From: Saccoglossus kowalevskii
Taxonomy: Eukaryota > Hemichordata > Enteropneusta > Harrimaniidae
NCBI RefSeq assembly: GCF_000003605.2
Contig: NW_003118931.1
Coordinates: 700,324 to 756,414, forward strand
Direction: 5' to 3'
DNA: 56,091 bases
The notes below the pieces were generated by a model. It did no database searches and was not told the origin of the DNA. It was given only the letters and a program-made list of their open reading frames with translations. Positions 1 to 50,911 of this stretch are shown here, in pieces; the stretch's first letter is position 1; each line of letters begins with the position of its first letter. A program made the position numbers and the translations under genes.

Positions 1-3000
1 TGATACACCATAGGCAGGGTATTTTTCACATATTATGTTATAGGATACCACCATAGGAAGGGTATTTATCACATATTACGTTATAGGATACCACCATAGG
101 CAGGGTATTTGTCACATATTACGTTACAGGATACCACCATAGACATGGTGTTTGTCGCATATTACGTTATAGGATACCACCATAGGCAGGGTATTTGACA
201 CATATTACGTTATAGGATACCACCATAGTCAGGATATGTGTCACATATTACGTTATAGTATACCACCATAGGCAGGGTATGTGTCACATATTACGTTATA
301 GGATACCACCATAGGCAGGGTATTTTCACCTATTACGTTACAGGCTGCCACCACAGACAGGGTGTTTGTCTCATATTACGTTATAGGATACAACCATAGA
401 CAGGGTATTTGTCACATATTACGTCATAGGATACCACCATAACCAGGGTATTTGTCACATATTACGTTATAGGATACCAACATAGACAGGGTATTTGTCA
501 CATATTACGTTATAGGATACCACCATAGGCAGGATATTTTTCACATATTACGTTATGGGATACCACTGAGGCAGGGTATGTGTCACATATTACGTTATAG
601 GATACCACCATTGGCAGGGTATTTTTCACACATTACGCTATAGGATAAACCATAGGCAGGTTTTTTCACATATTACGTTATAGGATACCACCATAGCCAG
701 GGTATTTTTCACATATTACGTTATAGGATACCACCATAAGCAGGGTATTTGTCACATATTACGTTATAGGATACCACCATAGGCAGGGTATTTGTCACAT
801 ATTACGTCATGGGATACCACCATAGGCAGGGTATTTATCACATATTACGTTATAGGATACCACCATAGCCAGGGTATTTATCACACATTACGTTGTAGGA
901 TACCACCATAGGCAGGGTATTTTTCACATATTACTTTATAGGATGCAACCTTAGGCAGGGTATTTTTCACACATTACGTTATAAGATACCACAATAGCCA
1001 GGGTATTTATCACATATTACGTTATAGGATACCACCATAGCCAGGGTATTTATCACATATTGCGTTATAGGATACCACCATAGGCAGGGTATTTTTCACA
1101 TATTACGTCATAGGATACCAACATAGGCAGGGTATGTATCACATATTACGTGATAGGATAGCACCATAGGCAGGGTGTTTATCACATATTGCGTCATAGA
1201 ATACCACCATAGGCAGGATATTTATCATATAATACGTCATAGGATACCACCATAGACAGGGTATTTGTCACATATTACGTTATAGGATACCACCATAGGC
1301 AGGGTATTTGTCACATATTACGTCATAGGATACCACCCGAGGCTGGGTTTTTGTCACATATTACGTTATAGGATACCACCCGAGGCAGGTATTTGTCACA
1401 TATTACGTTTAGAATACCACCATAGACATGGTGTTTGTTACTTATTACGTTATAGGATACCACCATAGGCAGGGAATTTGTAACATATTAAGTTATAGGA
1501 CACCACCATAGGCCGGGTATTTGTCACATATTACGTTATAGGATACCACCATAGGCCGGGTATTTGTCACATATTACGTTATAGGATACCACCATAGGCC
1601 GGGTGTTTGTCACATATTACGTTATAGGATACACCATAGTCAGGGTATGTGTCACATATTACGTCATAGGATACCATCATAGGTAGGGTATTTGTCAGAT
1701 ATTATGTTATAGGATACCACCATAGGAAGGGTATTTATCACATATTACGTTATAGGATACCACCATAGGCAGGGTATTTGTCACATATTACGTTACAGGA
1801 TGCAACCATAGACAGGGTGTTTGTCGCATATTTCGTTATAGGATACCACCATAGGCAGGGTATTTGTCACATATTACGTTATAGGATACCACCATAGTCA
1901 GGATATGTGTCACATATTACGTTATAGTATACCACCATAGGTAGGGTATTTGTCACATATTACGTTATAAGATGCAACCATAGGCAGGGTATTTGTCACA
2001 TATTACGTCATAGGAAACCGCCATAGGCAGGGTATATGTCACATATTACGTTACAGGACACCAACATAGACAGGGTATTTTTCACATATTACGTTATAGG
2101 ATACCACCATAGGCTGGGTATTTTTCACATATTACGTTATAGGATACCACCATAGGCAGGGTATTTTTCACATATTACGTTATGGGATACCACCATAGGC
2201 AGGGTATTTGTCATATATTACGTCATAGGATACCACCATAGTCAGGGTATGTATCGCATATTACGTTATAGGATACCACCATAGGCAGGGTATTTTCACA
2301 TATTACGTTATAGGCTACCACCATAGACAGGGTGTTTGTCACATATTACGTTATATGATACCACCATAGGCAGGGTGTTTGTCGCATATTACGTTATAGG
2401 ATACCACCATAGGCAGCGTATTTTTCACATATTACGTTATAGGATACCATCATAGACAGGGTGTTTGTCGCATATTACGTTATAGCATACCACCATAGGC
2501 AGGGTATTTGTCACATATTACGTTATAGGATACCACCATAGACAGGGTGTTTGTCGCATATTACGTTATAGCATACCACGATAGGCAGGGTATTTGTCAC
2601 ATACTACGTTATAGGATACAACCATAGGCAGGGTATTTGTCACATATTACGTTATACGATACCACCATAGGCAGGGTATTTGTCACATATTACGTTATAG
2701 GATACCACCATAGGCAGGGTATTTGTCACATATTACGTTATAGGATACCACCATAGGTATGGTATTTGTCACATATTACGTTATAGGATATCAACATAGA
2801 CAGGGTGTTTGTCACATATTACTTTATAGGATACCACCATAGACAGGGTGTTTGTCACATATTACGTTATAGGATACCACCGTAGGCAGGGTATTTTTCA
2901 CATATTACGTTATAGGATACCACCGGGGCAGGGTATTTTTCACATATTACGTTATAGGATACCACCATAGGCAGGGTACTTGTCACATATTACGTTATAG

Positions 3001-4290
3001 GATACCACCATAGGCAGGATATTTCTCACATATTACGTTATATGATGCCGCCATAGTCAGAGTATGTGTCACATATTACGTTGTAGGATACCACAATAGG
3101 CAGGGTATTTGTCACACATTACGTTATAGGATACCACCATAGACAGGGTATTTTTCACACATTACGTTATAGGATACCACCATAGACAGGGTACTTGTCA
3201 CATACTACGTTATAGGATACCACCATAGGCAGGATATTTGTCACATATTACGTTATAGGATACCACCATAGGCAGGGTATTTTTCACACATTACGTTATA
3301 GGATACCACCATAGGCAGGATATTTGTCACATATTACGTTATAGGATACAACAATAGGCAGGGTATTTGTCACATATTACGTTATACGATACCACCATAG
3401 GCAGGGTATTTGTCACATATTACGTTATAGGATACAACCATAGACAGGGTATTTGTCACATATTACGTCATAGGACACCACCCGAGGCTGGGTTTTTGTC
3501 ACATATTACGTTATAGGATACCACCCGAGGCAGGTATTTGTCACATATTACGTTATAGGATACCACCATAGGCCGGGTATTTGTCACATATTACGTTACA
3601 GGCTGCCACCACAGACAGGGTGTTTGTCGCATATTACGTTATAGGATACCACCATAGGCAGGGTATTTGTCACATATTACGTTATAGGATACAACCATAG
3701 ACAGGGTATTTGTCACATATTACGTCATAGGATTTGTCACATATTACGTCATAGGACACCATAGGCAGTGTATTTGTCACATATTACGTTACGAAACAAC
3801 CATATGCAGGGTATTTGTCACATATTACGTTACGATACAACCATAGGCAGGGTATTTGTCACATATTACGTTGTAGGATACCACCATAGGCAGGGTATTT
3901 GTCACATATTGCGTTATAGGATACCACCATAGGCACGGTATTTTTTACACATTACGTTATAGGATACCACAATAGGCAGGGTATTTATCACATATTACGT
4001 TATAGGATACCACCATAGCCAGGGTATTTATCACATATTACGTTATAGGATACCACCATAGGCAGGGTATTTTTCACATATTACGTTATAGGATACCACC
4101 ATAGGCAGGATGTTTGTCACATATTACGTCATAGGATTTGTCACATATTACGTCATATGACACCATAGGGAGGGTATTTGTCACATATTACGTTACGATA
4201 CAACCATAGGCAGGGTATTTATCACATATTACGTCATAGGATACCACTATAGGCATGGTATTTATCACATATTACGTTACGATACAACAT
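1..4290. repeat. 43-bp tandem satellite array, about 100 monomers, open at left edge
   Basis: Almost every base belongs to head-to-tail copies of a 43-bp monomer. The period was measured from successive ACGTTATAGG or ACGTCATAGG anchors, for example 421 to 464. A representative piece is CACCATAGGCAGGGTATTTG. Monomers vary at fixed sites: GTATTTG/GTATTTT/GTATTTA, ACGTTA/ACGTCA and GTGTTTGTCGC. A shorter 41-bp form containing GTTACGATACAACC appears near 3790-3850 and 4190-4280, and truncated units of about 25 bp occur near 3727 and 4131. The period is not a multiple of three and there is no long open frame, so it is non-coding. The right border decays after about 4280. The array begins mid-monomer at base 1, so it continues outside the window. 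It could be a pericentromeric, subtelomeric or interstitial satellite; the sequence alone does not say. Confidence 0.97.
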
Positions 4291-8804: not shown

Positions 8805-8975
8805 TTCACTGTATACATTTCACCATGTATTTGCATACGAATAATAATGTTACTCTAAGTATCTAATTTGTTCAGGGAGGGAACCAAATCCCCGCGAGGA
8901 TTTCTATTCGATTAGTCGTTTTTGTTATCTACTTTATTTCCAATCTTGCTTAATTAAAATCATTACCTAGCTAAT
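8805..8975 (+). repeat. Conserved core of triplicated unit, copy 1
   Basis: It contains the octamer-type word ATTTGCAT at 8829-8836 and the inverted repeat AAATCCCCGCGAGGATTT at 8886-8903. An AT-rich homeodomain-like stretch with TTAATTAAAAT follows near 8950. It is about 80% identical to copies 2 and 3 by eye. Confidence 0.75.
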
Positions 8976-8977
8976 TA

Positions 8978-9604: not shown

Positions 9605-9790
9605 TTCACTGTATACATTTCACTTTTTATTTGCATACGAATAACGATGTTGCTCTAAGTACCTAATTTGTTTAGGGAGGGAACTAAATCCCCGCGAGGA
9701 TTTATTTTCGATTATACTGTTTTGGTGTCTCTTTTATTTTCAATCTTTCCTAATTAAAATCATTAACTTGCTAATTACTTGACATTCTAC
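9605..9790 (+). repeat. Conserved core of triplicated unit, copy 2
   Basis: The order of words matches copy 1: ATTTGCAT at 9629-9636, a GGGAGGGAAC block, the 18-bp inverted repeat at 9686-9703, and a CTAATTAAAATCATTAAC stretch downstream. It shares CACTGTATACATTTCAC with copy 1 at its left side. Confidence 0.75.
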
Positions 9791-10509
9791 ATTGATGTTT
9801 TGCAATGTCACATTGCGTTCGATAACCTTGGCGAAATAACAGTTATCGAGACACACAGACACCTAACTAAATTAACTTCAATAAAGTTATAGGGGGCATG
9901 ATTTTGCATCATCGAGCCTTATATCTACCTTTATAATTCAATACTGAAAAATTTGCCGTGTTTCAAGTCGATCGTTGTGACCACTAATCCTAAGTTAAAT
10001 AGCAAGCCGACACGCGTTAGTCAATCAGGTGTACAGAGTCTTGGTGACTTAATTCAATAGACATTCTATAAAGGTGTAACAGGATTACAATACCACTGGG
10101 TAACAGTTTGTGATAAAAAAATCGCTTTTAAGTGTCGTATATCATAGACTCATATAGTCTCATCATAGACACAATGCTACCAGGACATATCTATGTTATC
10201 GCGCTAAAATAAAGGAGTCGATTGATTTTTAATTAAAGAAACAAACGTCTCGTTGCGGAGATACACACAAATGCAAGTCATCATCATGATGAAAATCCAG
10301 ATAAAACACAAAGATCAAGCTTATACTTTAATTCACTTCATGACTGTGTTGAGGTAGGCAAGCAAAGATTTCAACCGATTTTTGTTTGGTCCCACAAGTA
10401 ATAACCATGACAATATAGCTTCCCTAACTGTCAATAAAGCCCGAAAGCCGAACTCTCATTAAGAATTAAAGCATTCGTTACTATATCGATATCTTCAATG
10501 TTTACAGTG

Positions 10510-10710
10510 GCTCTATAAACCTCACCATGTATTTGCATACGAATAACGATGTTACTCTAAGTACCTAATTTGTTTAGGGAGGAAACTAAATCCCCGCGAG
10601 AATTTTCATTCGATTACTTTTTTGTGTGGTCTCTTTTTATTTTCAAACCAACTTAATTAAAATGATTAACGTTTTAATTACTTGACAGATAGCATTGATG
10701 TTCAAGTTTC
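10510..10710 (+). repeat. Conserved core of triplicated unit, copy 3
   Basis: ATTTGCAT lies at 10531-10538, and the inverted repeat at 10588-10605 has one arm mismatch (GAATTT for GGATTT). The TTAATTAAAATGATTAAC stretch and the ATTACTTGACA...ATTGATGTT tail shared with copy 2 follow. It is the most divergent of the three at the palindrome. Confidence 0.75.
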
Positions 10711-15304: not shown

Positions 15305-15601
15305 CCAATCAGCGAGCCGCACAGTTTGGCTCCTCCCACACACTGCCCGAGGAACGTGCCTGCATATTTAATTCAGTCCACTTGTTGTTCTCTGACAATG
15401 TTTAGAAAATAGACTCCTATTGTTGGAACAATGATCTGACGTGATGTTCACATCTATTATGTGCTCACTTGTTAGCTTTCAATCACGCGTTACTTTAATC
15501 AATGGCGATAACGTGTTGAATTCATCGAACACACAGAACTCGTGCTTCGGAGGGTCTATATAAGGACGAATGTAGAGTGCAGGGAGTAGATCGCCCACGA
15601 G
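15305..15601 (+). promoter_or_regulatory. Proximal promoter of Fer3 paralogue A
   Basis: The block aligns with the upstream regions of paralogues B and C. Elements in order are CCAATCAG near 15305, CTTGTTGTTC near 15381, CTGACGTG at 15436-15443, CACTTGTTAGCTTTCAATCAC (split over 15465-15486), the TATA box TATATAAG at 15557-15564 and GCCCACGAG at 15593-15601. TATA-to-GCCCACGAG spacing is 36 bp, so transcription probably starts at about 15587. That gives a short intronless 5' UTR of about 125 nt with no upstream ATG. CTGACGTG resembles a CRE/ATF half-site; the binding factor is inference. Confidence 0.8.
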
Positions 15602-15711: not shown

Positions 15712-16512
15712 ATGGCGTTTCCTGCTGGACTGATCGAACTCGATGAGAAGCCATTCTACGAGAGTTATGCCGAGGACTCCTGCAGTTCATCGTCATCAGA
15801 GGCAGTCATGTCACCTCCGAAGATGCTGAACAACTTTACCAACGTTGCCGTTCCCGGTGAGTACGATAGTTGGGCTACAGGCTTCACAGATTTCGCCAAC
15901 TACCAGACAGAACCCTTTTACGCTTCTAGTAGCGACAGCTGCTCCAGCAGTATGGAGCAAGGTTCGTCTGTGGCATCGTACGATATGAACCAGATAACAA
16001 ACTTTCCTACTGAACTTCACAATATCAGTGCGCCTGTTGACACGAACTTTATCATCCCTTCACCAACACCGACACAATTTACTGACTCTCCTCCGCCATC
16101 GGGTGTCGAGAACCGCTCTCCAATCTACATCCACCGTCCCAAGTCAACGAAGCCCAAGAGAAAACGAGTAATCAACCCAACGCAGAGAAAAGCAGCGAAC
16201 GTGCGCGAAAGAAAAAGAATGTTCAACATAAACGAAGCGTTCGACGAACTGAGAAAGACAGTCCCAACTTTCGCATACGAGAAGAGGCTTTCCCGCATCG
16301 AAACACTCAAGTTGGCAATCATGTACATATCATTTCTCGGCGACGTCGTCAACGGTAAGGAAGTGGACGAAGTACAGCTCAGAAAGTTAAGAAGCAGCTT
16401 CAATCAATTGACAAGTCTCGGCGTGGACGATAGTGAATCCAGTTCTACCGAACAATTTAATAGCACCCCCAGTGCTGTGGACTTCAATTTCAGCCAGTAT
16501 TTCACGTCGTAA
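15712..16512 (+). CDS. Fer3: Fer3-family bHLH transcription factor, paralogue A
   Basis: A single-exon frame encodes 266 residues. The bHLH spans about residues 158-215: basic region [13 protein letters not shown] with the E-box-contacting Glu and flanking Arg, helix 1 [12 protein letters not shown], loop [13 protein letters not shown], and helix 2 from [14 protein letters not shown]. The [14 protein letters not shown] signature separates Fer3/FERD3L from Ptf1a, which has LPYEKRLSKVDTL. The protein should act in the nucleus, binding E-boxes as a heterodimer with a class I E-protein. The N-terminal 140 residues are Ser-rich and acidic with two SSSS-type clusters, unlike B and C apart from a shared LxNFxxxxVPxY motif near residue 39. 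It is longer than human FERD3L (about 166 residues). The start context ACCATGG is strong. A basic KPKRKRV stretch before the bHLH may be a nuclear signal. Confidence 0.95.
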
Positions 16513-34589: not shown

Positions 34590-34890
34590 GTGACAGTTCA
34601 AAACAAAATGTAGCCAATCAGCAAACCCTCACTCCCACTCATATGCGGTTGTCAGCATTTGGACGTTGCGCTATTTGTTGTTCTTGTGCAGTGTTCGCCA
34701 AATAGCTACGCATTGTATAACAATAAACTGACGTGGGGCTTGAATTTATTGTTACTTTTCGATCACTCATTACTTTTAACCAAAAGCGATAAGTTGATGA
34801 ATGGACTGGGTCTGACAGAAAACTCGGCTTACTGAGATGTTCCTATAAAGTCGCGTGCCACGTCACATCGGCAAGTTCTTCGCCCACGAG
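34590..34890 (+). promoter_or_regulatory. Proximal promoter of Fer3 paralogue B
   Basis: The block is strongly similar to the upstream region of paralogue C and more weakly to that of A. Elements are TGACAG near 34591, CCAATCAG near 34613, GTCAGCATTTGGACGTTGCG from 34651, CTGACGTG at 34728-34735, AATGGACTGGGTCTGACAG from 34800, the TATA box TATAAAG at 34844-34850, GTGCCACGTCACA just after, and GCCCACGAG at 34882-34890. TATA-to-GCCCACGAG spacing is 38 bp. The probable start site is near 34875, giving a 5' UTR of about 150 nt. Confidence 0.82.
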
Positions 34891-34951
34891 TCACCACCGT
34901 ATAAGGTAGAAACGCCAACTGACCGTAACACTGAGTCATCCTTCTCCGCCA

Positions 34952-34975
34952 ATGTTGCGTACCAAGTTTGTTTAA
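34952..34975 (+). promoter_or_regulatory. Seven-codon upstream open frame in the 5' UTR of paralogue B
   Basis: ATG at 34952 opens a frame of seven codons ending in TAA at 34973-34975, 51 bp before the main ATG. Paralogues A and C have no ATG in the corresponding UTR. It could lower translation of B, but this depends on the inferred start site. Confidence 0.4.
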
Positions 34976-35026
34976 CTAATTGTTAGCACGTTAGCTTTCC
35001 ATTCAGTAAAGCCACATTAGAACATC

Positions 35027-35424
35027 ATGGATTCTCCTTCAGCCAGTAACCAACTTGAAGATAATCCTACATCATGCGAGAGTCCTTACACCAATGATAA
35101 TAGTGCATCGCCGGTGTCGTCGGTGAGTGAGCCACTAACAACGTTGACTAATTTCAGTTCCACGGTCGTGCCAGATTATGCCAATAATATGAACTATAAT
35201 GCAACCGAACAACAGATAGTAAGTGATGTACAGTACAGTTATGTTCCGACGACTGAATGTTACCAGTCTTACAGTCGAGCAAATACAATGGACACCGGTC
35301 TTTTGTCGACATGGCCAGCTCCGAATCATCCATCCAACACATCTATGAATGTAACGATGCAGGGAATGCCTATTGATGTAAACATGATTCCCTCAACTTC
35401 CACATTTATGTCGACAAGACCAGC
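35027..35424 (+). repeat. Inverted near-identical tract, B copy (gene-conversion candidate)
   Basis: From the ATG to 35424 the sequence matches paralogue C (50079-50470, opposite strand) with four mismatches and one 6-bp indel. From 35075 to 35424 there are only two mismatches, both synonymous. Identity drops abruptly after AGACCAGC at 35424 and is also low immediately upstream of the ATG. Confidence 0.93.
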
Positions 35425-35854
35425 GTTCATGGATATCGCACCTCAGCAATATCACCATTTTCAGCACCATAATCAACCACAAACCCAACTTTCCAAACCC
35501 AAACGGAGGAGGGTGGCTACCGTTGCACAGAGACGAGCGGCGAACATACGTGAAAGGAAACGTATGTTCAACCTGAACGAAGCGTTTGACGAGTTGAGGA
35601 AAAGGGTGCCGACTTTCGCCTACGAAAAGCGACTCTCACGTATTGAAACCTTGAGACTGGCCATAGTTTATATCGCATTTATGGGGGACATCGTCAGCGG
35701 GAAAGATGAAAAAGACGTTAAACTGATGCAGATCAAGACAAATTTTAACCAGCTGAAGAAATTGGTACTGGGACCATCTTCTCACCATGCGTCCACGGGA
35801 ATGGTCATGTCTATTGGCCAATCTCTGCCATGTAGCGAGTTTCTTGCAGATTAA
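35027..35854 (+). CDS. Fer3: Fer3-family bHLH transcription factor, paralogue B
   Basis: A single-exon frame encodes 275 residues. The bHLH spans about residues 168-225: basic region [13 protein letters not shown], helix 1 [12 protein letters not shown], loop [13 protein letters not shown], and helix 2 [14 protein letters not shown]. This is the closest of the three to the FERD3L/Fer3 consensus. KPKRRRV before it is a probable nuclear signal, and a His/Gln-rich stretch ([11 protein letters not shown]) precedes that. Residues 1-134 are Ser/Thr/Asn-rich and nearly identical to paralogue C, which suggests a transferred or homogenised activation region. After helix 2 the C-terminus keeps an NFNQL motif shared with A (SFNQL). 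The product is expected to bind E-boxes as an E-protein heterodimer in the nucleus. The start context is ATCATGG. The bHLH is 49/59 identical to both A and C. Confidence 0.95.
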
Positions 35855-36484
35855 CATTTTTTCTAAATATCGTTGTTTTTATTACGCGCTTTTCACCAAT
35901 ACCTGCGTATTGTATGACGTTTAATCCTTTGCTTGGACACATTTCGTGCCAACTCAACTGGCCATGCCGGTAAGTCCCCGGCCAGTGCCACAATATGCGC
36001 ACCAGTCATTAAGCCATTTATATTCTAAATATTTCATATCATCATTGCTTTTTGTTTTCATGTCTTCTTCATTCTGTATTTATTATTTCGTTTACGAACT
36101 CTGATCTTGAGAATGTCTCTTAAGAAAACGTCTGGTTCCTAGCACACGATGTGAAAACAGGTGTGGCGTTGGTAACTTGACTGTTGCCGAGAGCTACAGA
36201 TCCCGTTATTTTTGGAATGCCGACTGACTGCTACAAGTCAAGCATGCATCATTACAATCATCATAACATCGTATACGGTGCATAGATATAATAAGTTCAC
36301 ATTGGTAAGAGTTTAAACTCTTCGTGTTTTCAATCGTCTATAACTACCTCCACGATTGGTGTCAGCCAGTACAGAATCAACGGGGTTCTCACAAGTTTTT
36401 CTACAATAGTAAAAAAATCGAGTTTCTTCAAGTTCATATGTATTTTTTCCCGTTTTTTTATTGAAAGGGCTTAACAAATGTGTC

Positions 36485-36552
36485 TTATTTATTTATTAAT
36501 TTATTTATTTATTTTATCTACTGATCTATATTTTATTTATTTATTTATTTAA
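36485..36552 (+). promoter_or_regulatory. AU-rich element cluster in the probable 3' UTR of paralogue B
   Basis: ATTTATTTATT-type words recur in two runs (about 36485-36515 and 36532-36551), giving many overlapping AUUUA pentamers and nonamer-like UUAUUUAUU words. No AATAAA or ATTAAA occurs between the stop codon and this cluster, so it should be transcribed. AU-rich elements of this class destabilise mRNAs. It could instead be a plain (TTTA)n microsatellite. Confidence 0.5.
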
Positions 36553-36628
36553 ACGTTTCGCTATTTATGACTATTTTCTGATATGTAAATTATTCCAATA
36601 ACATATTTTTTATCTCAAGCATACTATG

Positions 36629-36634
36629 AATAAA
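36629..36634 (+). terminator. Candidate polyadenylation signal (AATAAA) for paralogue B
   Basis: This is the first AATAAA after the stop codon, about 775 nt downstream and 77 nt after the AU-rich cluster. Confidence 0.5.
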
Positions 36635-36639
36635 AGCAA

Positions 36640-39600
36640 TCACTATACGGATCTTATAGTGAGAATACTCTGCTCTGACACTCCCACAGTGCATTAATGT
36701 ACCACTATACTTATATTATCTATATAATTGGTGAACCAGCTTTTATTTTAAATAGTACACCTTATTATTAATATTTGGTTATTGAAATATAATGGACAAT
36801 GTCCACTTATTGCAGACTCGCGTCTTCGACTCACTCATTCATACGATGATACGTTTTGTGTGCACAATGACTATGTTTGAAAACGCACACCAAAAGCAAG
36901 ATCGTCACTTTGGTTGAGAAGTTGAAAATATTATTCTTTTAATATTTTGTTTTTGTGAGTACCAGGCAACATTTCCTGATATTGAATTCACTGCTGTCTC
37001 TTCTGACTGACTGAAGTTTAGGCGCATTCTTGTCTTTCAAATATAATGTTTGGAAAGGAGGGGAGATGTACTTGTATTTATACTGTTGCATGAGTCGGCT
37101 CTGGAAATAAAATCTACAACCTCCATGGTGTAAAACGATCATGCTGAATACTGTACCATTGCCAAGGTTCGTAATATCAATTGCCATTGTCGGAAACCTT
37201 GTTATTGTTCGACATTTTATTCAAGTGTTGTTTAGGGATAGCTTATTTACATAATAAAAATGTCACAATATTTTCAGGCTCAAAACAGTATTTAAAAATA
37301 TCAGTTTTAGTATTTTGTTTTATTTTAGATTTGGAATATTACAACTATTGATATCAAGTTTAGTGAACGATATATTTCGGCGACTTTTCCTTATTTTCAG
37401 TGTATCTAATACCACGGCTGTTACATGTTGATAACATCGACGACGCGTTCATCAATATTGTCGTTGGCAACAGCTCTCTGTGCCGAGGTCAGAGGCAACA
37501 ATGAACTCTAAGATCAACATTATTTTTCTTTCTCATCTTTTGTTTTTAATGTCAGTTTGTACTTGTTGCAGTCACGTGGCTATTTGGGGCTATATTCAGC
37601 GAAAATCGGCGACTGATATTGAACTAATTCGTCTGCGTGAAATTGCGCAAACAAGTAAACATTGATTATACAGAAATTTCCTTCCCTCCCCAAAGAATTC
37701 CACAAGTTATATATCCTATGTCAGATAATTTAAAGGTGTTCAATTTGCAGATCACCTGCTTACATTCTCCGCCACCTTGTGAGAGTGATTGACTCATTGT
37801 CTTCTCTGTCCCATAGTCCCCTCCCTTCCACACCATGATCATCCATGCCGTTAGTTGCCATGGGTACTGACTGGGCAACCTCTCGGCACTACCCTTCAGA
37901 GCAGAAAATCACCATGATGAGTTCAGTTATCGAACAAGGCCGCGAGCAAATCAAACGACTAGTGACTATTTGTCTTTTCATTTTCCCATGGTGGACATGT
38001 GCGAAGTTTCAGAAAATGCATCTGTCGAGTATCTCCCCGGCCAACCTGAAAAAATGAGAAAATCCACTACTTCTAGCGGTGTTCAGTCTATACACAAAGA
38101 CCCCCAAGCACAAACCATGAGTGCTCTTCATTGCAATAAGCTTTGACATAACCCATATCGTCACAATGGCCACCAACCCTAGCTATACATTTTTTGACGA
38201 ACAAAGGATTCTTTCATACACAGAAAAACACAGATGAAAATCTGATTTCACAGAATACTATAAATAAAACGTTTAGATTGGTATGTTCAGTCAAGGGCGC
38301 AAAATAACCCAATTGTAAATGTCACCATTGGGAAAGCTTTCGTATTGTTTAAAGATAAAACTATTGCGCCATTAATACAATGTTGGAATAACTGTGTTGA
38401 GATATAAAGATGGAATTAAATTTCGATTACTTAAACATAATAGATTTAAGAATTTGGTTGTAAGGTTTCACCCTGTGCTAATTGCAGTGTAGTGAAAGCA
38501 TTCCTTGAGTATGATCCGGCATGATGCATACTGGACGCATAGTGTGAAATTTAGCTAATGCGCTCAATACTTGACTCGGAGCTGATTGCGTTTCTAATTG
38601 TTTAGACATGAATCAAATGATATTGAGTATTGAGCAAGAGTCACCTTCGCGATTGTTATTTTCTGAAAAAAAAAATTGCCAAGTCGCCTAGAATAAAGTA
38701 CAATCACTTATTAATTATTTGCAGCGAAATGTTATCAACATCATCTATGAATTCCTTAACATGTTGGACCCGCATTTAGCAAAATACCGCCAAATATGCT
38801 GGTTGGAAATGCGTTGTAATATTGAAAGCAAATGCCATCATAGGACGTATGCGTAGTTGAATTCATTGTTCCAATATCTATACATAGGATAATGATATTC
38901 ATAGGTGATTGGTAGTATTGTTTTATAAATTCACAAGTTTGAAAAAAATAGAAACTATGGTTAGAGTCATGCTAATAATGCACTAAAAGTTATCGGTGTT
39001 ATGAAATATAGCGTAACATATTATATATCCTTGCACTACAAAGTAGGGCTAAACAACTGGAAATATATATATATTGTTGTGTGTCCATTATTCTCCAGTG
39101 ACTGGCGCTTAAATGGCCACAGTTACAATAAGTTACGGCTTAAATAATAAAATACAGAGGCAGAGATGACATCTATTCTACCAACTTTCAGTAAATAATT
39201 TATATTTCACATCACGCCCCGGTTCACCTCTGTATATGTTCGGCCACATCACTGTGACAAATGTACGCCGATTATAGAAAATCACATTTTTAAGAAGAAC
39301 GTAGACGTGTTCTTAGGACGTTCTAGTCTCAGAAACCTGTGGGTCCACGAGGCAATGAATTAACCTCCCTTAAAACTAAGGGATACACCAATTTTTGTAA
39401 CTGAAATTGCCAGGGAACACCACAATCCAAAAAGAATGATTAAATCAATCGGAACAAGCCAAAATTGAATAGAAAAAAAATAAAGAAAAAAAAAACAAAA
39501 CATTTTAGTATTTACAAATATTACCGTTCATTTTATTTGTTCAAAAAGGACGCTATCAACCCTTGACCGGTAAGTCACATTGCAAGAAGTAATTTAGCTC

Positions 39601-41680
39601 CGGCCTTGGTTTTGATTATTTTAACATTTTTTTCCCAAAATAAAATTGTTCGTCTGGGAGAGTGTTATTTACTTCAAAAATAGACACAGAAAAAAAGCTT
39701 TATTGGCCAGGTCGCATAAAAACAGCAAGCTGTCGCCCTAATAACACAATATCGCTAACAGCAGTGTTGGCAACAGGTTGGATGGAGTTGGCGATTTAAA
39801 TTGTTTTATGAATTGACAATATGAGATGTCATCCAACCGACCCCCTAACTTCGCCAAAATATCTTCATTCTCGTAAATTTTTTTTTTATTCGGAAACGAG
39901 TGAAAAACGGAAGGTGTACTTTTGTTTTACTTTTACTTTCACAATTCCTTTTTAATTACATATTTCGTAAAAACGAATATTACACTTTGTGGCGCGTGGT
40001 GTGAGCAGAAGTAGAGGATTGTTGGGATTAATGTATTAAATAGGAAAAACAATGTGATATTAATGGCGGACTTTGCCGACATGATGCACCTTACTGAGTC
40101 TAGTTATTTCCCATTACAAAATATGAAGTAATAATAAATAATTATTGCATTCACCTTCCATGCCGGGTGAGATTCATAATTATGTGTCGAGTTGGCGTAC
40201 TTGAAACAACAGAATGGTCTTTGTGACTAAATTGACATCATCAAGTGACCATGGCGGGTTGAATATGGACATCTTTGATGTACAACGAATTTTGATAATG
40301 TTCAATACTATACTTGAATGTATATGTCTTATGAATATATAATACTACAATTATGCCGTTCCATTTTAATTTTCTACTTCAGCCTAGGTGGTTCCAAGTG
40401 AATGAGAATTTAATATAATATAATATTGCTCGGCAATATATCTCGCGTTTTTTTATGCCAGGACAACGTACAATATTTTCCACAGATACGAGAAAATATA
40501 CAGCTAAAAACAGCAACAGTTTATAGAATTAGGTGGGTAATGAGAGTTGATTTGCATGAAAACTGAAACGTATTGAGCGCCAGCTGACGGTCGATGACGC
40601 GAACTCTGTGGCGGTCAATTGGGTAGTATTGCTGTGCGTGCCAACGTGGCATTAAATACAGCTGCTGAACATGATAAATAGAAAATGAAGTTGAAATTTT
40701 AATCCACACTGACAAGTAAACGGTAGGAATGGAAGAAAAAAATATACCAATTAACAATATAATTACTTGGTACAAAGAATTCACTTTGAAATTGCTATGA
40801 TGACGAGATTCCGACTGGATTTACAGTTCGACTATCTACGTAGGTAATATACAATCGTAGACCGGACGTGACGCAACCGAAGTGTGTTGACCTACGATAA
40901 ACCGGAGAACATCGTAAACGTTGGTAGTCGTCGTCCTTAGAAAATATTTTTGTAATATGTATTGATTCTAGATTGAGCCTATGATCTTTTCTATGAAGCA
41001 GAGGAATATTAATTTGTTATGTTTTCAAAAAAAAGAGGGATACAGAGTTTTCGTTTTCATTTTGAAAAAAAAACACACACAGTTTTTTTAATATTTCGGA
41101 CAACAGCAACACTTCCGTCTTTGAACAATTCCACCTAATCCGATCAACGCATGGATTATGGTGGATTAGACTGAGACAAGAAGTTGCTATGGCTTTGGAT
41201 GAATCAGCTGGCAACATTTCAAGTGGCCAAGCGGAAAGTTTCAATCAATGCTAATCCGTAATTCAAATAAAAAAACACACACCACCTACTCCAAATCATC
41301 GGGTATGACTCCAAACCTCGTCCCAGCAACATTTAATTTCATTCCCACTCGTCGTTTAATTCCATGACTTAACAGTCACAGCATAAACATTCTAAACATT
41401 ATACATTGGCAACAGTAAGCATTTGTTGGTGGGAAGCCGCGGTGATATAAAAAAAGATGGAACGGTCTATGAAGGCGACATCATACTCATATGATTCATT
41501 CGCAAATCGACACGTTTCTGTCGAGGCCCTATTGAGCAATGGAACATGAAAAACAACACACATATTTTGTCATAGCAGAATAGCCGTGCTTCGATATTTT
41601 ATTTCGACCCTCATTACTAGTATCAATCGGATATGATAAAATTATGAAACTTATTTAAAAATCTTACGCCCCACGTGAAC
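36640..41680. other. Intergenic downstream of paralogue B
   Basis: Apart from the small secreted-type frame, no gene is recognised. A 7-bp hairpin with a TCG loop lies at 40423-40439 (ATATTGC/GCAATAT). The minus-strand frame 36939-37187 (82 codons) is unrecognised. Confidence 0.5.
37501..37665 (+). CDS. Candidate small secreted ORF or first exon, unrecognised
   Basis: From ATG 37501 (A at -3) a 54-codon frame starts with a signal-peptide-like segment: MNSKINIIFLSHLLFLMSVC, then a Cys/Ser end suited to cleavage near residue 24. A charged tail DIELIRLREIAQTSK follows. The frame closes at TGA 37663. ACAA|GTAAAC near the end could be a splice donor, and TTCAATTTGCAG at about 37739-37750 is a reasonable acceptor, but the joined frame stops after about 10 codons. 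The composition is suggestive but the evidence is thin. Confidence 0.22.
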   Translation: MNSKINIIFLSHLLFLMSVCTCCSHVAIWGYIQRKSATDIELIRLREIAQTSKH

Positions 41681-41682
41681 AA

Positions 41683-42269
41683 CTTCGTGAACAAGACGTT
41701 CAAAAAATCGTAAACCTGACGTGCACCAAATCGCAAACCTCACTTGCATCAAATCGTGAACCTCACTTGCATAAAATCGTGAACCTCACATGCATCAAAT
41801 CGTCAACCTCACGTACATTAAATCGCGGACCTGGCGTGCATTAACGGTCGTGAACCTCACTTGCATCAAATCGTGAACCTCATATGCATCAAATCGTCAA
41901 CCTCACGTACATTAAATCGCGGATCTGGCGTGCATTAAGTCGTGAACCTCACTTGCATCTAATCGTGAACCTCGCTTGCATCAAATCGTCAACCTCACAT
42001 GCATTAAATCGTCAACCTCACGTACATTAAATCGCGGACCTGGCGTGCATTAAGTCGTGAACCTCACTTGCATCAAATCGTGAACCTCGCTTGCATCAAA
42101 TCGTCAACCTCACATGCATTAAATCGTCAACCTCACGTACATTAAATCGCGGACCTGGCGTGCATTAAGTCGTGAACCTCACTTGCATCAAATCGTGAAC
42201 CTCACTTGCATCAAATCGTGAACCTCACTTGCATCAAATCATTAATCCCATCCAGTGCACTAAATCGTG
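41683..42269. repeat. 23-bp minisatellite with 115-bp higher-order repeat
   Basis: About 25 head-to-tail units of a 23-bp motif are present, for example AAATCGTGAACCTCACTTGC plus three bases. Unit subtypes are ordered. The distinctive CGCGGACCTGGCG unit recurs at 41824, 41918, 42033 and 42148; the last two steps are exactly 115 bp (five units) and the first is 94 bp. Edges decay into degenerate units, with CGTAAACCTGACGTGCACC on the left and ATTAATCCCATCCAGTGC on the right. The array lies between the convergent paralogues B and C. Confidence 0.93.
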
Positions 42270-45200
42270 TGCTCGTAGATATGACCCCGATTATTTCTGA
42301 AAAAGAAATATCTACCAGGGTATAGCAGTATTTTAAAAACAAACGACAATAATTTTTCACGGTTTGTGTGATTGACACATCTAATATTTTCTTGTACGAG
42401 TATTGGAATTTTTCAAGACATACCATAGTCGTAGTTTGTGGTTTCGGGACTGAACCAAGGTAACTTCATGAAACAGTACTAGAAATTATTATATAGGCTA
42501 CTAATAATAACTTTCTTTGGAAAGCGGTGTTTAAAAACAAACCGAAGAGTTTAAACGCATCGATAAAGAACTAGTTTTTGTTCTAACTCTTCACCATAAT
42601 CGAGACATCCCTTCCACACAAAGCGCATTTATTTGTGGTTATTTGTTTCCTCCAGCGCACTCAAAACACCAACAACGCGATTTATCGATTTACAAATAGT
42701 TGATAGTTCTATTTTCAAGAAAATAAACCATAACTGTCAAAGAGAAAAGTTATTCGTCATGGAGTCATTTTCCGTCTGTGATATAAATATCGAATCAGTT
42801 AATTCTTTGTCCCTTTCATATTCTCAGTCTCCAGTGTATTATATATGATGCGACATACACACTTGTTTTTGCATGGTGTCCCGATTTCAGAGGAGAAAAT
42901 TGATTCAATTTGATCTCATCGTCCTTTAATAGTTCAATCAATTCAACCTACTGGCAAGTAAACTTGCAAAAAAAAACAACGGTCAACAATATTCACTTCC
43001 ATTATTTTTACTTTCGCCTATCAGGCCACCCCGGGGTCGCCATCGAAGTAACGAAACTTACATGTTTTGGTCGCGGTAATTGTGATTAATCAGCACACGG
43101 AAAGCCGAACAACACTCACGACAACCTGATGCACCTATACATTAGCGCGATGGTTTAAGTTAATGTATTGCACCTCCGAACAAGCCAACGTGTTACCATA
43201 GAACACGTGTCCCGGCAAGCTGTGTTCCACCCTTTCTCACAGAAACTCTCACATATACAATGGTAACGGGGGAAAAACAAAAATAATCATTTTCATTAAT
43301 TGATTTCTGAAAATTTGGGCGAGGTCTAACTTTCCCTTTGAGGGAACGTTGAGTAATTAAAAACACAGACGTGTTTTTTTTTGTATCCGTGTTGGGTCGA
43401 GGGACAGGTGAAATGAGATCTGCCCGCATCTAACTTTCTTCTATCAACACCAACTAAGACCTGTCAGGTAATTTTTTTGGAAGTCGATCACTATATTGGG
43501 GCTGTCAATTTCAAAGTCGTTGCACCAATCTTACATTAGAGGGCATTGCTCTGCGTGTCCATCTTGTATGATCGGCGGCGATTTTGTGACGACGGCAGTG
43601 TTCCTCTTCTCAGTACAAAATGTTGCCTGTGATTCCAAATCAAAATAGCCAACGAGCAGATATGCCTTAGTCGGTTGTTATGTTGGGATATCTCTCTGTT
43701 GTCTGTTGTAGATGACACAAGTTTCTGCAGTTGGCCACACCAAGGTAGACACCGCACCCACCCCCTATCAAGGCACTGAGTCAGACGTCAGTGTTGTTTC
43801 AGAGTGCAATGAACTTATCACTCAATTGGTGAGAATGGCTAACGTGCTCAAGACGGTTTTTTGGGAAAACAATTGCCTCGATTGTTAACACTCTCCGCCT
43901 ACGATAGTTGAAAGTGCGTTTAATTGTTACCAACGATAGAGCCGTACCCCGTATTTTGTTTAATGATGTTGGCTGATAAGTTAGAGAAAGAGTCATTGAA
44001 TCGACCAATAAAATGGAATGGCATTTTTTTATGCTGGCTAACAGACAATTGTAAACTGAAATCAATTAAACCATTTTTTTCTGAGGAAAACGATATATAA
44101 TGCTGTTCTGCAGTTGAACATAGCTCATGTAACTAACTGCACGCGACTTATATATCTGTGGCGACCCACTAGGAGATGGGCCGGCCAAATTAAAATCAAT
44201 CGTAAACTTTATTACCATTATACGGATTGTGGAAACTCTTAGACCTCATTCCTTTGTCTTGTATTCTTGTATTTACTCCAATAATTACTGCTGTGCATAT
44301 GGGCGCAATTGGGCCTGTGTTATTGCTACCGCCATAACTGCACGATAATTTTGCACGCGGCTGCTTTGATGATGCGTATTAAAAACAAGCCACATACTGT
44401 TTTTTATCGCTGCGACTCAAGGACCACTTTTTGCTTCTACATCCTATATTGCGCCTCGTGTGTGAGAAATGCTGTCAAAAATAGTACAATGCGGTGTAAG
44501 CCACGAATCACAAATATGCACGTAAAAACCCACTTTAAACGCAACATTTTACAACTTGTTATAATTACCAAATACGCCTTGGGAAGGGAGTGTGCGATTT
44601 GCCTCGTTTGTGGAATAGTTAAATAAAAGGTATCTATAGAACCCCGCTTTGCTATACAAAGCGCTATTAGAGTCACGTCTCCAAGTCAAGTCGGTGATTG
44701 ACATCAGGGAAGGGGAATTAAAGTCCGTTTAATACTTATCTAACTGTTGTTCAACCGTGACTTCCCATGATGGAATCGACATCATTTCTGTCACTCAGAT
44801 GTTAGCTTCACATACTACTTCGGCGGGCAGTTGTCGTAATCCAATGATTCACTGAGATTTTCGCATGGGAAACAGGGGAGATAATTGAGCCAACGTCTCG
44901 GACAGCTGTCTTCTTTCTCGCTTGGATGTCACATAAAATGTGTATTTTGCCACGGAATGAGAATCAATTTGTGAACAATTTCAGGTATCTGTTACACCAA
45001 AATGTTTGTTTTCAAACTCTAGTTTTGTAAGAGCTCTATCGTACATAGTATTGATCGAAAACGAGTATAATTACCCCACAGTGACAGCCAAGCGTTTTAT
45101 TTGAAAACCACACATTGTGTGAAGACCGAAACCGCCGTTATAGAAAGCTGTCTGTCAAACTTTATAGCATTTTATTTTTATTTTAATGAGATTATCGATA

Positions 45201-45996
45201 AAGCGTTTCTTTAGATTTTAATTTTTTAATGAGGGGTTTATTGTCAGTGTTCGATTTAAAAACATTTAGGTGGTGAGTCGAATTACAAAGTAGACTAACA
45301 CAGCTAAGTCTACTCGCTTAATTACAGTTGTGTATTCAGAGTCAAATCACGGCGTGCAACGCAACATGTTACGACGACAAAATATCCTCATTTTAACGTG
45401 TATATGCTTCGAGTGGATCTCTCTTCACAGTTAAAATTGTGTTCATTGTTTTATTAACGTTAAAATTAGGAATGAAATGAACGATTTGTTAAAAACTAAT
45501 ACACTATATAGAATATAACACATATTATAAACGATATGTCGCCTTTGACGCTTTATAAAAATAGTTGAATAATTTAACAATCCAGAGCTTTGCCAAGTGG
45601 GAGTTTTATATCTATCTATGCGTGTGATGGTGAAACGAATAAGATGAGAATTCGTTTGTTATTTCATTGGTAACTGTATCCCTACAACGGCAGTGTAATA
45701 AAACACTAATGACTTACGTTAACTGTGGTGCTTTTTGGAAAAGGAATTCCGATTCAATTAACGTGATATTACCCTTTCAATAGAAATCGCATTTTGTTAA
45801 CTAATGGAAACATATTAACAAAAACATATTAACAAGACCAGAACAATTAGTAGGCGATAAGGAGCACGAGAGTGCGACACGAATTCCTTATCATGGCGGC
45901 GGTAACTATGATGAAGTGTGTGAGAAATGAACGAGTTTAGAGAGCGTTGTCAAAGGATATGCGCTCGAGTTTTTTACAGTTGATATTGTATTCGCA

Positions 45997-46022
45997 GGGT
46001 CACCGAAGTCACCGAGGTCACC
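45997..46022 (+). promoter_or_regulatory. Three nuclear-receptor-type half-sites spaced by three bases
   Basis: GGGTCA, AAGTCA and AGGTCA follow each other, each separated by CCG, a 9-bp period. Direct repeats of AGGTCA with 3-bp spacing are the known DR3 geometry for some nuclear-receptor heterodimers. It may equally be a short 9-bp tandem duplication. Confidence 0.3.
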
Positions 46023-46223
46023 ATACAACTAGAAGTCTTATTATGGGAGCTAAAACGTCCACGATTGTGCCCAATATCTGTCATATCACAACATTTATTT
46101 CTGCTTTATTATGGAATGGAATATAACAGACGGTCATCTGGTATACTGATAATAAAGTACCAGACCAGCCCGGAGTATTGGGATACTTCTGGGCATAGTT
46201 GGAATCTATGAGACCAGTACTAA

Positions 46224-46442
46224 ATGGGACTTGCTCTGGTCGGTATTTCTATAATGATAATTGTAATATTAGCAAAACGCTCTGATTACTATCTTGTACG
46301 GTTTGAGACAAGTATTAACGACTTTGCAACGCGGCTTACAATGGAACTAGAAACAATGCTCCCAATTTATCCTAAAGAACCACATGTAAATGATTATGCT
46401 AAACTAGTGCTACTGCAACAGAGAATAGAACACATCATATAA
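46224..46442 (+). CDS. Candidate small single-pass membrane protein, unrecognised
   Basis: A 72-codon ATG frame is closed by TAA. Residues 2-17 (GLALVGISIMIIVILA) form a convincing hydrophobic segment followed by KRSDYY, consistent with a membrane anchor and cytoplasmic tail. The rest is mixed and amphipathic, with acidic MELETM and a Gln/Arg/Glu-rich end. An in-frame TAA immediately precedes the ATG, so the frame cannot extend upstream without a splice. No homologous family was recognised, and it could be chance. Confidence 0.22.
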   Translation: MGLALVGISIMIIVILAKRSDYYLVRFETSINDFATRLTMELETMLPIYPKEPHVNDYAKLVLLQQRIEHII

Positions 46443-47394
46443 GTATCTTTATAAACACAAAGATGAACAAATGACTAGTGAATAGTTGGCACATTGTTGT
46501 AAGGGAGGAGGTAAGAACTAGAGCAACTGTACCACAGCCGCACAAATCGTGACCCGCAGTCGTAAACGGAGAAAAATGATGATTTGGGACAGACTATCGT
46601 AAATCCGATAACGCTACGCTGCTTATTAGATGAATCGTTCACATTGAAGTGATTAGGAGTGGATATGTAACATAGTCACGCGGTAGAGAACTAGTATCTG
46701 TGTGGATGAAACAATAACATAAATAAAGATTCGTCGACTGTTTTTGCACAACTGTTATGTTATTCCATGTTCTCTACTTCTAGCCAGTGCCACAGTGACA
46801 TGACGTGTCAATTCGATAATACAACACTACTGTATGTTTAGTATGTCAATGTAATTTATTGTTCACTGTGATGAATAAGTTTATCATCATTCAGACAAAA
46901 AGTATCAGTTTATGCTACTATGTTTCAAATATCTACTTTTTGTCACACCCGTTGTAGAAACAGAATGTCGCACATAAACAAAATTAGTTTAACATAAAAC
47001 ACACATCAATCACAAAGCCATCTAGTGCATTCGAAATCAACCGAGGAAAAGGGCAAAGTTCTATAACACTATTCACACTGTGTTACGAAATAGAAAAAAA
47101 GGAACTGTTTATTTACGACGGGGCAACGGATGTAGAGCCATAGACAGTCTATGGCAGAACGGATATGTCGAATAACTGTATATTAAAAGTCACAGCACGT
47201 CACGACTATGCTGCACAGATCCAATCATGCATGAAAGCGTACACCTTTGTATCCGAGAAATGATACCCAGAGACGTCGACTCAATTAGCAAAACAATATT
47301 TACTTTTTACTCTTTTACATATGCCCTACTTCGTTCCTTTCTTTCCCAGGCGAGTTAAATGTAGCAATGTCCAACCTGGGAAAGCTGTATATTT

Positions 47395-47640
47395 ACAAAT
47401 GCACTTCGCCCGTTTTTGTCTACTTCCGAGTTATAAATGCTCCGAGCGACGCCGGGTCGCAATCACGTGTCTATATTTTAGCGTAACCATGTAACGACTC
47501 GACAGCTAGTTGACGTACGGCATGCTTCGCTCCGTGCTGTCCCGTACTTAAGCACATAACAAAGTGTGGCCTCTTCTCTCACTGCCTCCGTCGGAGTTTG
47601 AGTAAATCACAGATCCGAGTGAAACTGCAACTTCATTAAA
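47395..47640 (+). promoter_or_regulatory. CpG-richer patch with TATA-like box and CACGTG E-box
   Basis: In AT-rich surroundings this patch has many CpGs, TATAAAT at 47432-47438 and CACGTG at 47464-47469. No open frame follows on either strand, so any transcript would be non-coding or spliced. It does not carry the Fer3 promoter words. Confidence 0.2.
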
Positions 47641-48060
47641 ACAAACAGGCCATGTGGTGTACAGATGTTGTAAGGGAGACTGAGTTCGGAGCACGTGACA
47701 GTGACGTCAGTCTCTGGGTACTGATGACAGACAACTGTTAGACAAAATGGCGATATGTCTTAATTTGTAAAAACCATGTCGAAAACGGAAACTGGAGCGC
47801 GGCTCTGGTCCTTAACATCTTACAAATTGATTGTGAAATGTTTGATTAAATTATGGCTGTGCCTTTCATGTATTTAAGAAACAAATAACTTTAATTTTAT
47901 CAAAAATCTAGATAGTTGGTTTGTTTGATGGTACGGCGGTTTTACCTTCGATGTCAATGATAATGTCATATAATTGTATTTATGCCCCGATAACGTTATA
48001 AATATTGCCTGGTTATCCTGCTTTGTGTGGCATAGGTTTCATAAACAAAATAGTAATAGT

Positions 48061-48085
48061 AAAAAAAAAAAAAAAAAAAAAAAAA
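48061..48085 (+). repeat. Poly-A run, 25 bases
   Basis: An uninterrupted run of A follows non-coding sequence. It may be the tail of an old retroposed copy or a simple repeat; no tRNA-like head or target duplication was recognised. Confidence 0.9.
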
Positions 48086-48980
48086 CTTTCGGTTTCGAAA
48101 AATAATTAAATATGCCTACCAGCACTACAGTTTTGTGTTTAATTCTTTCGAATAATTAACTTGGACAATGTGTCTTCCTTATTTAGCAGTATACAAAAAA
48201 GTCAAGTTGTCAGTAGATACAGTGTACAATTTCAAACAAATGAGAAAATATCAAAAACTATATTTTTAAATTTGTCAACACATATTTCAGTACAGTCATT
48301 AAACAATTATAAAAATATTGCCATTAAAATATGACATTGTGGGCTGGACATCTCCCTGTGCATATTTATTGAATGACCTTGGCCTGTCTACAACAATATT
48401 TACAAAATTTGAGTATTAATTGTCAAGAGCATTGTTCTCTGAAGTGCACGCTTTGTCCCTTCCCTTGGTTGTATGTGATTTAAATATATTGCTGCATAAA
48501 TGTGTTTTATACCTTATTTCGTTGAGAAAATAATAAATTCTAGAAAATAATATATATATATGTATTTTAACACTGATGCTCGATGGTGGAATTACTGCTG
48601 ATGCATGTTATACACAGATTATGATTTGGAACAGCTGTGGTGATTTAATTTTTGTAGGGGGAGTAACCGATTTTGTTTGGTCCTGATGCCGTCCCAAAGT
48701 ATTTCTTTTATATAAATGATGTCATCGTGCAACATACAAAGATTACACATTTCACCCACACGCTTCACGGGCTGCGTCACATGCGCTGTTCATCGTCAGG
48801 AGAGCTTGAGTCCGAAACCTATGGCGATGGCGTGTTCAAGACACGGAAACGAAAATCTCGCCCACCTTAAGGGAATTCAGCTACCATTAAAAAGGATTTC
48901 TCTTGTTTCAGGAAATCAGCTAATAAGTAGAGCAAATGAAAATGTTACGTTATTAACAAATTTTCACCAAATATATATAA

Positions 48981-48986
48981 TTTATT
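48981..48986 (-). terminator. Candidate polyadenylation signal (AATAAA, minus strand) for paralogue C
   Basis: TTTATT on the plus strand reads AATAAA on the minus strand. It is the first such hexamer after the stop codon of C, about 690 nt downstream. Confidence 0.35.
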
Positions 48987-49675
48987 CATCATTACAAAAA
49001 AATCATCATTGTAATAAATATAACATTGGCATTATTAAAAATATTACTATTTTCTAAACAAAAATACACCCGCTTTGGCAGTTATTATAGATAACCTTTT
49101 TCCAAATATATATAGGGATATTTATATTATTATTTTTCCAAAACAATAGTCTATAGTTGAGCTTAACTTATTAGAGAATTGTTGGAGCATCTCGGTTCTA
49201 GCAGGGGTTAATATACACTTGTCCATCTATTCACACCGAAACCAAATTAAGAAAATTCGATATTTATCTGAGACCAGACATCTGGGAATTGTTACTTGCC
49301 CTGTAGCCAAATCGATAAATCAGATTCCTACTATGCACCTATTCAGTCTAGGCAAATACAGGCGATTGGCAAACATTGGCAACGCACAAGTTTAAAGCTC
49401 TGCCGCAGATCTAATTACAAAGTATAAAGTTATATTTGCAAGTAAACATAGGATATAAATGAGTGTTTTTTTAAACTTTTTTTCTTCAATTCGCAGTTAG
49501 GATTTCACGTGTCGGGTGTCACATCATGTACTAAACTCGCCGCGGTCATTCCAGTGTTGAGTCAATTGTGTTATTACCAGGATTTTAGTAGAAAAGTATA
49601 TTCCGTTGTATTTCCATAGTGAATAAGTCATTACGAGAGAGGGAAAAGCTTGGCGATTTGCATAATTTATCACAC

Positions 49676-50470
49676 TCAACAGGTTATAACTGACTCCATA
49701 TCTTGGTTTGATAACGGCGACATGTCGTAAACGACGCCATCATCTTCTGCAAGTCTCGACTGGTCGTACAAAAGTTTTTGCCTCAGCTTAATCTCCTGTG
49801 CTTCTTTGCCGCTCAGCATATCCATCATGAAACCAATGTAGACGATAGCTAATCGCAGGGTCTCTATACGAGACAATCGTCTCTCGTATGCAAATGTCGG
49901 TACTCTCTTACGCAACATGTCGAATGCTTCATTGATGTTGTACATTCGTCTCCTTTCTCGTATATTTGCAGCTTTTCGTTGAGCGGTGGTGATGACCCTG
50001 CGTCTTTTTGGTTTAGAACTTTGCGGTTGGTGATTGTGGTGATAATGATGATACTGTTGGGGTGCCATATCAATAAAAGCTGGTCTTGTCGACATAAATG
50101 TGGAAGTTGAGGGAATCATGTTTACATCAATAGGCATTCCCTGCATCGTTACATTCATAGATGTGTTGGATGGATGATTCGGAGCTGGCCATGTTGACAA
50201 AAGACCGGTGTCCATGGTATTTGCTCGACTGTAAGACTGGTAACATTCAGTCGTCGGAACATAACTGTACTGTACATCACTTACTATCTGTTGTTCGGTT
50301 GCATTATAGTTCATATTATTGGCATAATCTGGCACGACCGTGGAACTGAAATTAGTCAACGTTGTTAGTGGCTCACTCACCGACGACACCGGCGATGCAC
50401 TATTATCATTGGTGTAAGGACTCTCGCAAGTTGTAGGATTATCTTGGTTACTGGCTGAAGGAGAATCCAT
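49676..50470 (-). CDS. Fer3: Fer3-family bHLH transcription factor, paralogue C
   Basis: A single-exon frame encodes 264 residues. The bHLH spans about residues 164-222: basic region [13 protein letters not shown], helix 1 [12 protein letters not shown], loop [13 protein letters not shown], and helix 2 [14 protein letters not shown]. All E-box-contact positions are kept, but helix ends have unusual Met substitutions (DMLRK, MMDML). KPKRRRV before it may be a nuclear signal, and a His-rich stretch (YHHYHHNHQ) precedes that. Residues 1-132 are almost identical to B apart from a two-residue deletion and one S/T change. The C-terminus ([15 protein letters not shown] onward) resembles neither A nor B. 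The start context is ACGATGG. It is convergent with B. The degraded TATA box suggests expression different from its sisters. Confidence 0.95.
50079..50470 (-). repeat. Inverted near-identical tract, C copy (gene-conversion candidate)
   Basis: This is the partner of 35027-35424. The match ends sharply at 50079; beyond it codons for the same residues differ at many third positions. Confidence 0.93.
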
Positions 50471-50600: not shown

Positions 50601-50911
50601 CTCGTGGGCTAAGTGCACGCCGCTGTGACGTGGCACGCGGCTCTATGTGGACAACCCCCGGACACGAGCTTACTGTCAGACCCAGTCCATTCAGGAGCGT
50701 ATCGTTTCTGATTAAGTTAATGAGTGATTGAAAGGTAACAAGTGGTTCTATAATAGATGCGAGCACCACGTCAGTTTATTGTTAGTACAATGCGTAGCTA
50801 TTTTGCGAACACTGCACAGGAACAACAAATAGCGCAACGTCCAAATGCTGACATCTTCCGTACGAGTGGGAGTGTCAGAGCTTTTGATTGGCCCATAATT
50901 CAATCTGTCAC
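50601..50911 (-). promoter_or_regulatory. Proximal promoter of Fer3 paralogue C, TATA degraded
   Basis: Read on the minus strand the words follow the B order: TGACAG, GGCCAATCA, GTCAGCATTTGGACGTTGCG, CTGACGTG (50767-50774), AATGGACTGGGTCTGACAG, GTGCCACGTCACA and GCCCACGAG (50601-50609). At the position of the TATA box the sequence is CATAGAG (50641-50647), with the same 38-bp spacing to GCCCACGAG. It also shares CACTTGTTAxCTTTCAATCAC with A. The block is diverged from B at many sites, unlike the coding tract. Confidence 0.8.

Follow-up and report, generated by a model that had tools for sequence, protein, structure and literature searches.

Homogenised 5′ coding halves in two inverted bHLH paralogues of Saccoglossus kowalevskii: probable ectopic gene conversion

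Two single-exon bHLH genes of the hemichordate Saccoglossus kowalevskii, here called B and C, are very probably old paralogues in inverted orientation in which ectopic, non-reciprocal gene conversion has homogenised the 5′ halves of the coding sequences. Both lie in a stretch of 56,091 nucleotides, referred to below as the window (contig NW_003118931.1, C1169:700324-756414), from an assembly of 572 Mb in 4830 contigs. They are oriented tail to tail, their stop codons separated by 13,821 bp, and a third paralogue, A, located in the same window, provides an outside reference. We consider ectopic gene conversion the best reading of the data and the process to have been probably recurrent. The genes, their HLH domains and the homogenised tract are as follows.

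15712-16512, + strand: gene A, third bHLH paralogue, single exon; open reading frame of 266 aa (PF00010, E 3.9e-20)
35027-35854, + strand: gene B, single-exon bHLH gene; open reading frame of 275 aa (PF00010, E 6.9e-20, aa 168-218)
49676-50470, - strand: gene C, single-exon bHLH gene; open reading frame of 264 aa (PF00010, E 3.8e-18, aa 164-214)
35528-35680, + strand: HLH domain of B (Pfam PF00010), beyond the tract
49829-49981, - strand: HLH domain of C (Pfam PF00010), beyond the tract
35027-35424, + strand: homogenised coding tract of B, 398 bp (25/25, a 6-bp indel at 35052-35057, then 363/367), from segmentation and mismatch list
50079-50470, - strand: homogenised coding tract of C, 392 bp, from segmentation and mismatch list
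L004:1498-2034, - strand: D, bHLH open frame of 178 aa
L006:1369-2064, - strand: E, bHLH open frame of 231 aa

With Pfam HLH scores of 71.8 (A), 71.1 (B) and 65.5 bits (C) at a cut-off of 20.7, all three proteins belong to the bHLH class; B is putatively Fer3/FERD3L-like, going by its motif. Two more bHLH matches, at 768297-768602 and 631857-632069 of the same contig, correspond to D and E, which flank the three genes on either side and bring the bHLH matches on the contig to five.

Starting from the ATG, B and C agree at 25 of 25 positions (35027-35051), then differ by the in-frame indel, and agree again at 363 of 367 positions (35058-35424). The four differences in this last part comprise a TCA/ACT codon swap (Ser/Thr; 35072 and 35074) and two synonymous sites, 35287 (A/C; Thr, ACA/ACC) and 35308 (G/A; Ser, TCG/TCA). 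A base-level listing thus confirmed what had been read from the letters alone, namely that 35075-35424 matches the complement of C over 350 bp with two mismatches, both synonymous; the partner segment had been given as ending at 50420, and the correct pairing is 50428-50079. Identity does collapse directly after AGACCAGC, which ends at 35424, the next 306 columns being 68.6% identical. It also collapses on the 5′ side, where the break lies at the ATG itself (35027): over the 145 columns 5′ of the ATG, identity is 34.5%. When B and C, once aligned, were divided by a penalised segmentation that was blind to these borders, ten segments resulted, with breaks including 35027 and 35424. The tract therefore has two sharp borders, with a barely alignable leader as its 5′ neighbour, and occupies homologous in-frame positions on opposite strands with strongly diverged sequence on both sides.

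Synonymous divergence follows the same borders. Inside the tract, 3 of 83 synonymous sites differ (proportion of synonymous differences, pS, 0.036), and one of these three belongs to the edge codon just beyond 35424. Outside it, pS reaches 0.85 in the C-terminus, 0.86 in the linker and 0.89 in the bHLH region, where it is saturated. Among degenerate codons encoding the same residue, identical codons were used in 12 of 12 cases at 35027-35074 and in 106 of 110 at 35075-35426 (two of the four differing codons lie past 35424), and in 10 of 19, 14 of 49 and 3 of 11 cases in the linker, bHLH region and C-terminus, respectively. In a 20-codon sliding profile, each window up to 35416 contains 0-2 same-residue codons that differ; from the window starting at 35387 through the bHLH region, the number is 4-14. 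The longest identical coding run measures 212 bp, a length reached in none of 20,000 permutations (mean 25, maximum 64); likewise, the longest identical run of same-residue codons spans 81 of 201, with a permutation maximum of 42 (0/20,000 reach 81). These tests follow the GENECONV principle and were run with a custom script, not with the GENECONV program. The expectation of the sequence-only reading, divergence at synonymous sites near zero inside the tract and saturated outside, is borne out, as is its view of the bHLH domain as the less similar half: 54 of 64 residues are identical over the stretch used here, where 49 of 59 had been counted over another. Third-position GC gave no information on the direction of conversion between the two genes.

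Paralogue A served as the reference for telling constraint from conversion. Over the 64-residue bHLH stretch, A is nearly equidistant from the other two genes in a near-star arrangement (identities of 51 for A-B, 49 for A-C and 54 for B-C). Over the tract, A and B differ with pN 0.56 and pS 0.76, compared with pN 0 and pS 0.036 for B and C. Since the N-terminus of A has diverged although A is about equally distant in the bHLH domain, the identity of the tract is not due to amino-acid constraint; the N-terminal region is fast-evolving in this family, and a homogenising process is needed to account for its identity between B and C. A tree of bHLH domains, built from seven rows from the same genome without named members, resolved none of its four inner branches and so speaks neither for nor against B and C as sisters; eight domains were intended, and L007, another locus of this genome, was dropped because the motif used yielded no frame.

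A second patch of high B/C similarity, a new observation of this analysis, lies in the proximal promoters and is separated from the tract by diverged sequence.

about 34648-34736, + strand: B copy of the second patch, in the proximal promoter (3′ edge at 34736, 34748 or 34772 by three criteria)
50766-50855, - strand: C copy of the second patch, in the proximal promoter (coordinates taken from the alignment)
34739-34890, + strand: core promoter of B as we read it, with TATAAA at 34844, read as a TATA box, and GCCCACGAG at 34882
34891-35026, + strand: diverged stretch separating patch and tract in B, presumably the 5′ leader (34.5% identical to C)

The inverted arms at 34650-34717 and 50786-50853 are 97% identical. 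Across 34650-34738, B and C agree at 86 of 89 positions (A-B 56/89, A-C 57/89), and in the adjoining 34739-34890 at 108 of 143 (A-B 94/143, or 93 in one alignment; A-C 92/143). A three-way scan of informative sites picked 34648-34736, a result matched in 7, 7 and 10 of 20,000 permutations for three alignments under one scoring scheme; a scan on B-C identity alone, run on three alignments under one scoring scheme, picked 34650-34772 (24, 33 and 23 of 20,000). The contrast between the patch and the adjoining block gave a Fisher p of 4e-5 or 1.2e-3 depending on the alignment, for blocks chosen post hoc. By segmentation the patch extends to 34748, where B has a gap of 12 columns; these columns are present in A and C, where 7 of 12 are alike. 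The patch is thus real as a local excess of B/C similarity, its 3′ edge is not fixed, and it may reflect either conversion of older date or constraint on an element that only B and C share. Further downstream, GCCCACGAG occurs in all three genes, 36-38 bp 3′ of a TATA-like site (A at 15557, B at 34844, C degenerate at 50647), the two together spanning 15557-15601, 34844-34890 and 50601-50647, respectively. This shared arrangement, together with proximal promoters that can be aligned among A, B and C, indicates that the cis-regulatory layout outlasts the 5′ leaders.

Three other explanations of the tract were weighed. Extreme purifying selection at the nucleotide level, acting through an exonic enhancer, an RNA structure or an overlapping frame, could have preserved the tract without conversion. 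In its favour, the coding tract, like the promoter patch, is located in DNA that is presumably functional, the 5′ border falls on the ATG, and a stop-free antisense frame of 62 codons is open in B and C alike. Its presence in both copies is, however, no independent evidence because the copies are near-identical. Such selection would have to have allowed two changes in 350 bp while synonymous sites of the bHLH region became saturated, and A shows no nucleotide constraint in the corresponding region. An RNA structure in particular was considered and rejected, since the tract of B folds no better than shuffled sequences (z +1.07; 86 of 100 shuffles fold equally well or better). An Rfam scan of the whole window returned no match at gathering scores. 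We regard purifying selection as an improbable cause.

A chimera of assembly or polishing, in which the 5′ half of one gene was written into the other, would be easier to accept in so fragmented an assembly, but it demands two in-frame junctions at homologous positions on the opposite strand, and B and C remain distinguishable by a 6-bp indel, a codon swap and two synonymous sites, which makes an artefact very hard to credit. Hardly any weight attaches to a recent partial duplication, in which a fresh 5′ copy of one gene was fused to an older bHLH half to yield C (or B). The highest B/C similarity does reside in the promoter patch and the N-terminus, as such a fusion would suggest, but what lies between them is diverged both in the core promoter and in the leader, so that no continuous recent copy is present, and comparison of the window with itself revealed no other long repeat over the borders. 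Gene conversion, for its part, does not predict a 5′ break exactly at the ATG; this border counts against it and is unexplained.

The sequence-only reading had proposed a recent conversion between inverted paralogues as the simplest account. Conversion itself holds up well, given the contrast in pS, the sharp edges and the fast-evolving N-terminus of A, whereas the picture of one simple event is not supported. Mismatches number 2 in 350 in the inner block and 2 in 42 aligned positions, plus the indel, at the 5′ edge; together with the promoter patch, which stands apart from both, this hints at several events, although the edge difference alone is no more than suggestive (Fisher p 0.059). The patch probably stems from an earlier or separate conversion. 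We propose that conversion has occurred repeatedly since the duplication, most recently not long ago, and may have maintained the tract as an island of similarity, a scenario suggested by the present divergence of the flanks, in which recombination would not readily begin. Conversion requires stretches of high identity, and bHLH halves that are 69% identical would offer none; a repeatedly converted tract would thus remain open to conversion, and the remainder would escape it. On this view, the part comprising bHLH and C-terminus would have dropped out of conversion early, and selection against conversions that erase HLH or C-terminal differences may have helped to fix the border.

The tract encodes 118 consecutive identical residues in B and C, and Ser (22), Thr (17), Asn (14) and Pro (13) are abundant among residues 1-133 of B. 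A Pfam search of the A, B and C proteins identified nothing beyond HLH, and none of five proteins matched NCBIfam, a bacterial and archaeal library; to call the product of the tract an activation surface is a guess. The further claim that the two factors differ in DNA binding found no backing, as their basic regions (13 residues each) are distinguished by just two K/R swaps, which does not indicate a different DNA target. Most of the other changes in the domain fall in the HLH helices, and further ones in the C-terminus; this distribution suggests that, if anything, dimerisation may be affected. One could imagine a modular form of concerted evolution, in which two modules, the N-terminal half and an element of the proximal promoter, are repeatedly homogenised by conversion and the core promoter, the leader, the HLH interface and the C-terminus diverge, leaving B and C with a shared expression input and effector surface and with different dimer partners; we hold this extension to be rather unlikely.

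Conversion covers most of the coding region in inverted Hsp70 and alpha-amylase pairs, which, unlike B and C, are not transcription factors. Conversion between these and similar closely linked inverted genes is cited in PMC3199776, so that the linked, inverted arrangement of B and C is one for which it has been reported in other pairs. Closer still is the Dlx pair of Capitella teleta described there, in which linked tail-to-tail transcription-factor paralogues carry a mosaic conversion tract of 150 bp (detected with GENECONV) and are otherwise diverged (PMC3199776). Mosaic conversion in tail-to-tail transcription-factor paralogues is already known, and B and C represent the same kind. The difference is that the Dlx tract comprises the 5′ part of the homeobox and the adjoining intron, whereas that of B and C is longer, covers a fast-evolving N-terminus and leaves the DNA-binding part unconverted. 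Mammalian TPRX1 and TPRX2, which flank CRX in opposite orientation, have undergone repeated interlocus conversion, with the 5′ part more prone than the 3′ part and a breakpoint within the coding sequence. They resemble B and C in all these respects, but there the homeobox lies within the more converted part and the evidence comes from many species (PMC8208926). Conversion of the B/C kind in bHLH genes was not found among the literature matches listed. If our reading is correct, conversion here maintains similarity in the half of a transcription factor that evolves fast and spares the conserved half, the reverse of Capitella Dlx. Trees built from complete sequences of genes like these would be misleading, and B and C would offer a natural test of separate selection on N-terminal and dimerisation modules.

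Further copies and relatives were sought in the same genome and in other collections. A protein search of the same genome with B scored all 37 candidates and gave 32 matching places (repeat counts are lower bounds), among which only B, C and A start before residue 119; the tract thus seems not to be a dispersed repeat, and no third copy emerged from these matches. Comparison by blastn of the tract and the three promoters with D, E and six other loci of the same genome (L005, L007-L011) gave no hit at E < 0.05, the best being 0.054 between the A promoter and L008 (L004 and L010 contain some N; L009 and L011 are N throughout). Viral contigs, GTDB genome contigs and plasmids, collections that hold no animal genomes and have no bearing on orthologues, yielded no relatives. 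Several repeats of other kinds are present in the window. A minisatellite with a 43-bp unit occupies 2-3733 with about 87 copies and continues with variant spacing to 4288, and a 173-bp direct repeat occurs three times (8805-8977, 9605-9777 and 10507-10679), the second and third copies being 86% and 69% identical to the first. Between B and C, a tandem array at 41685-42240 is built of a 23-bp unit within a higher-order unit of 115 bp.
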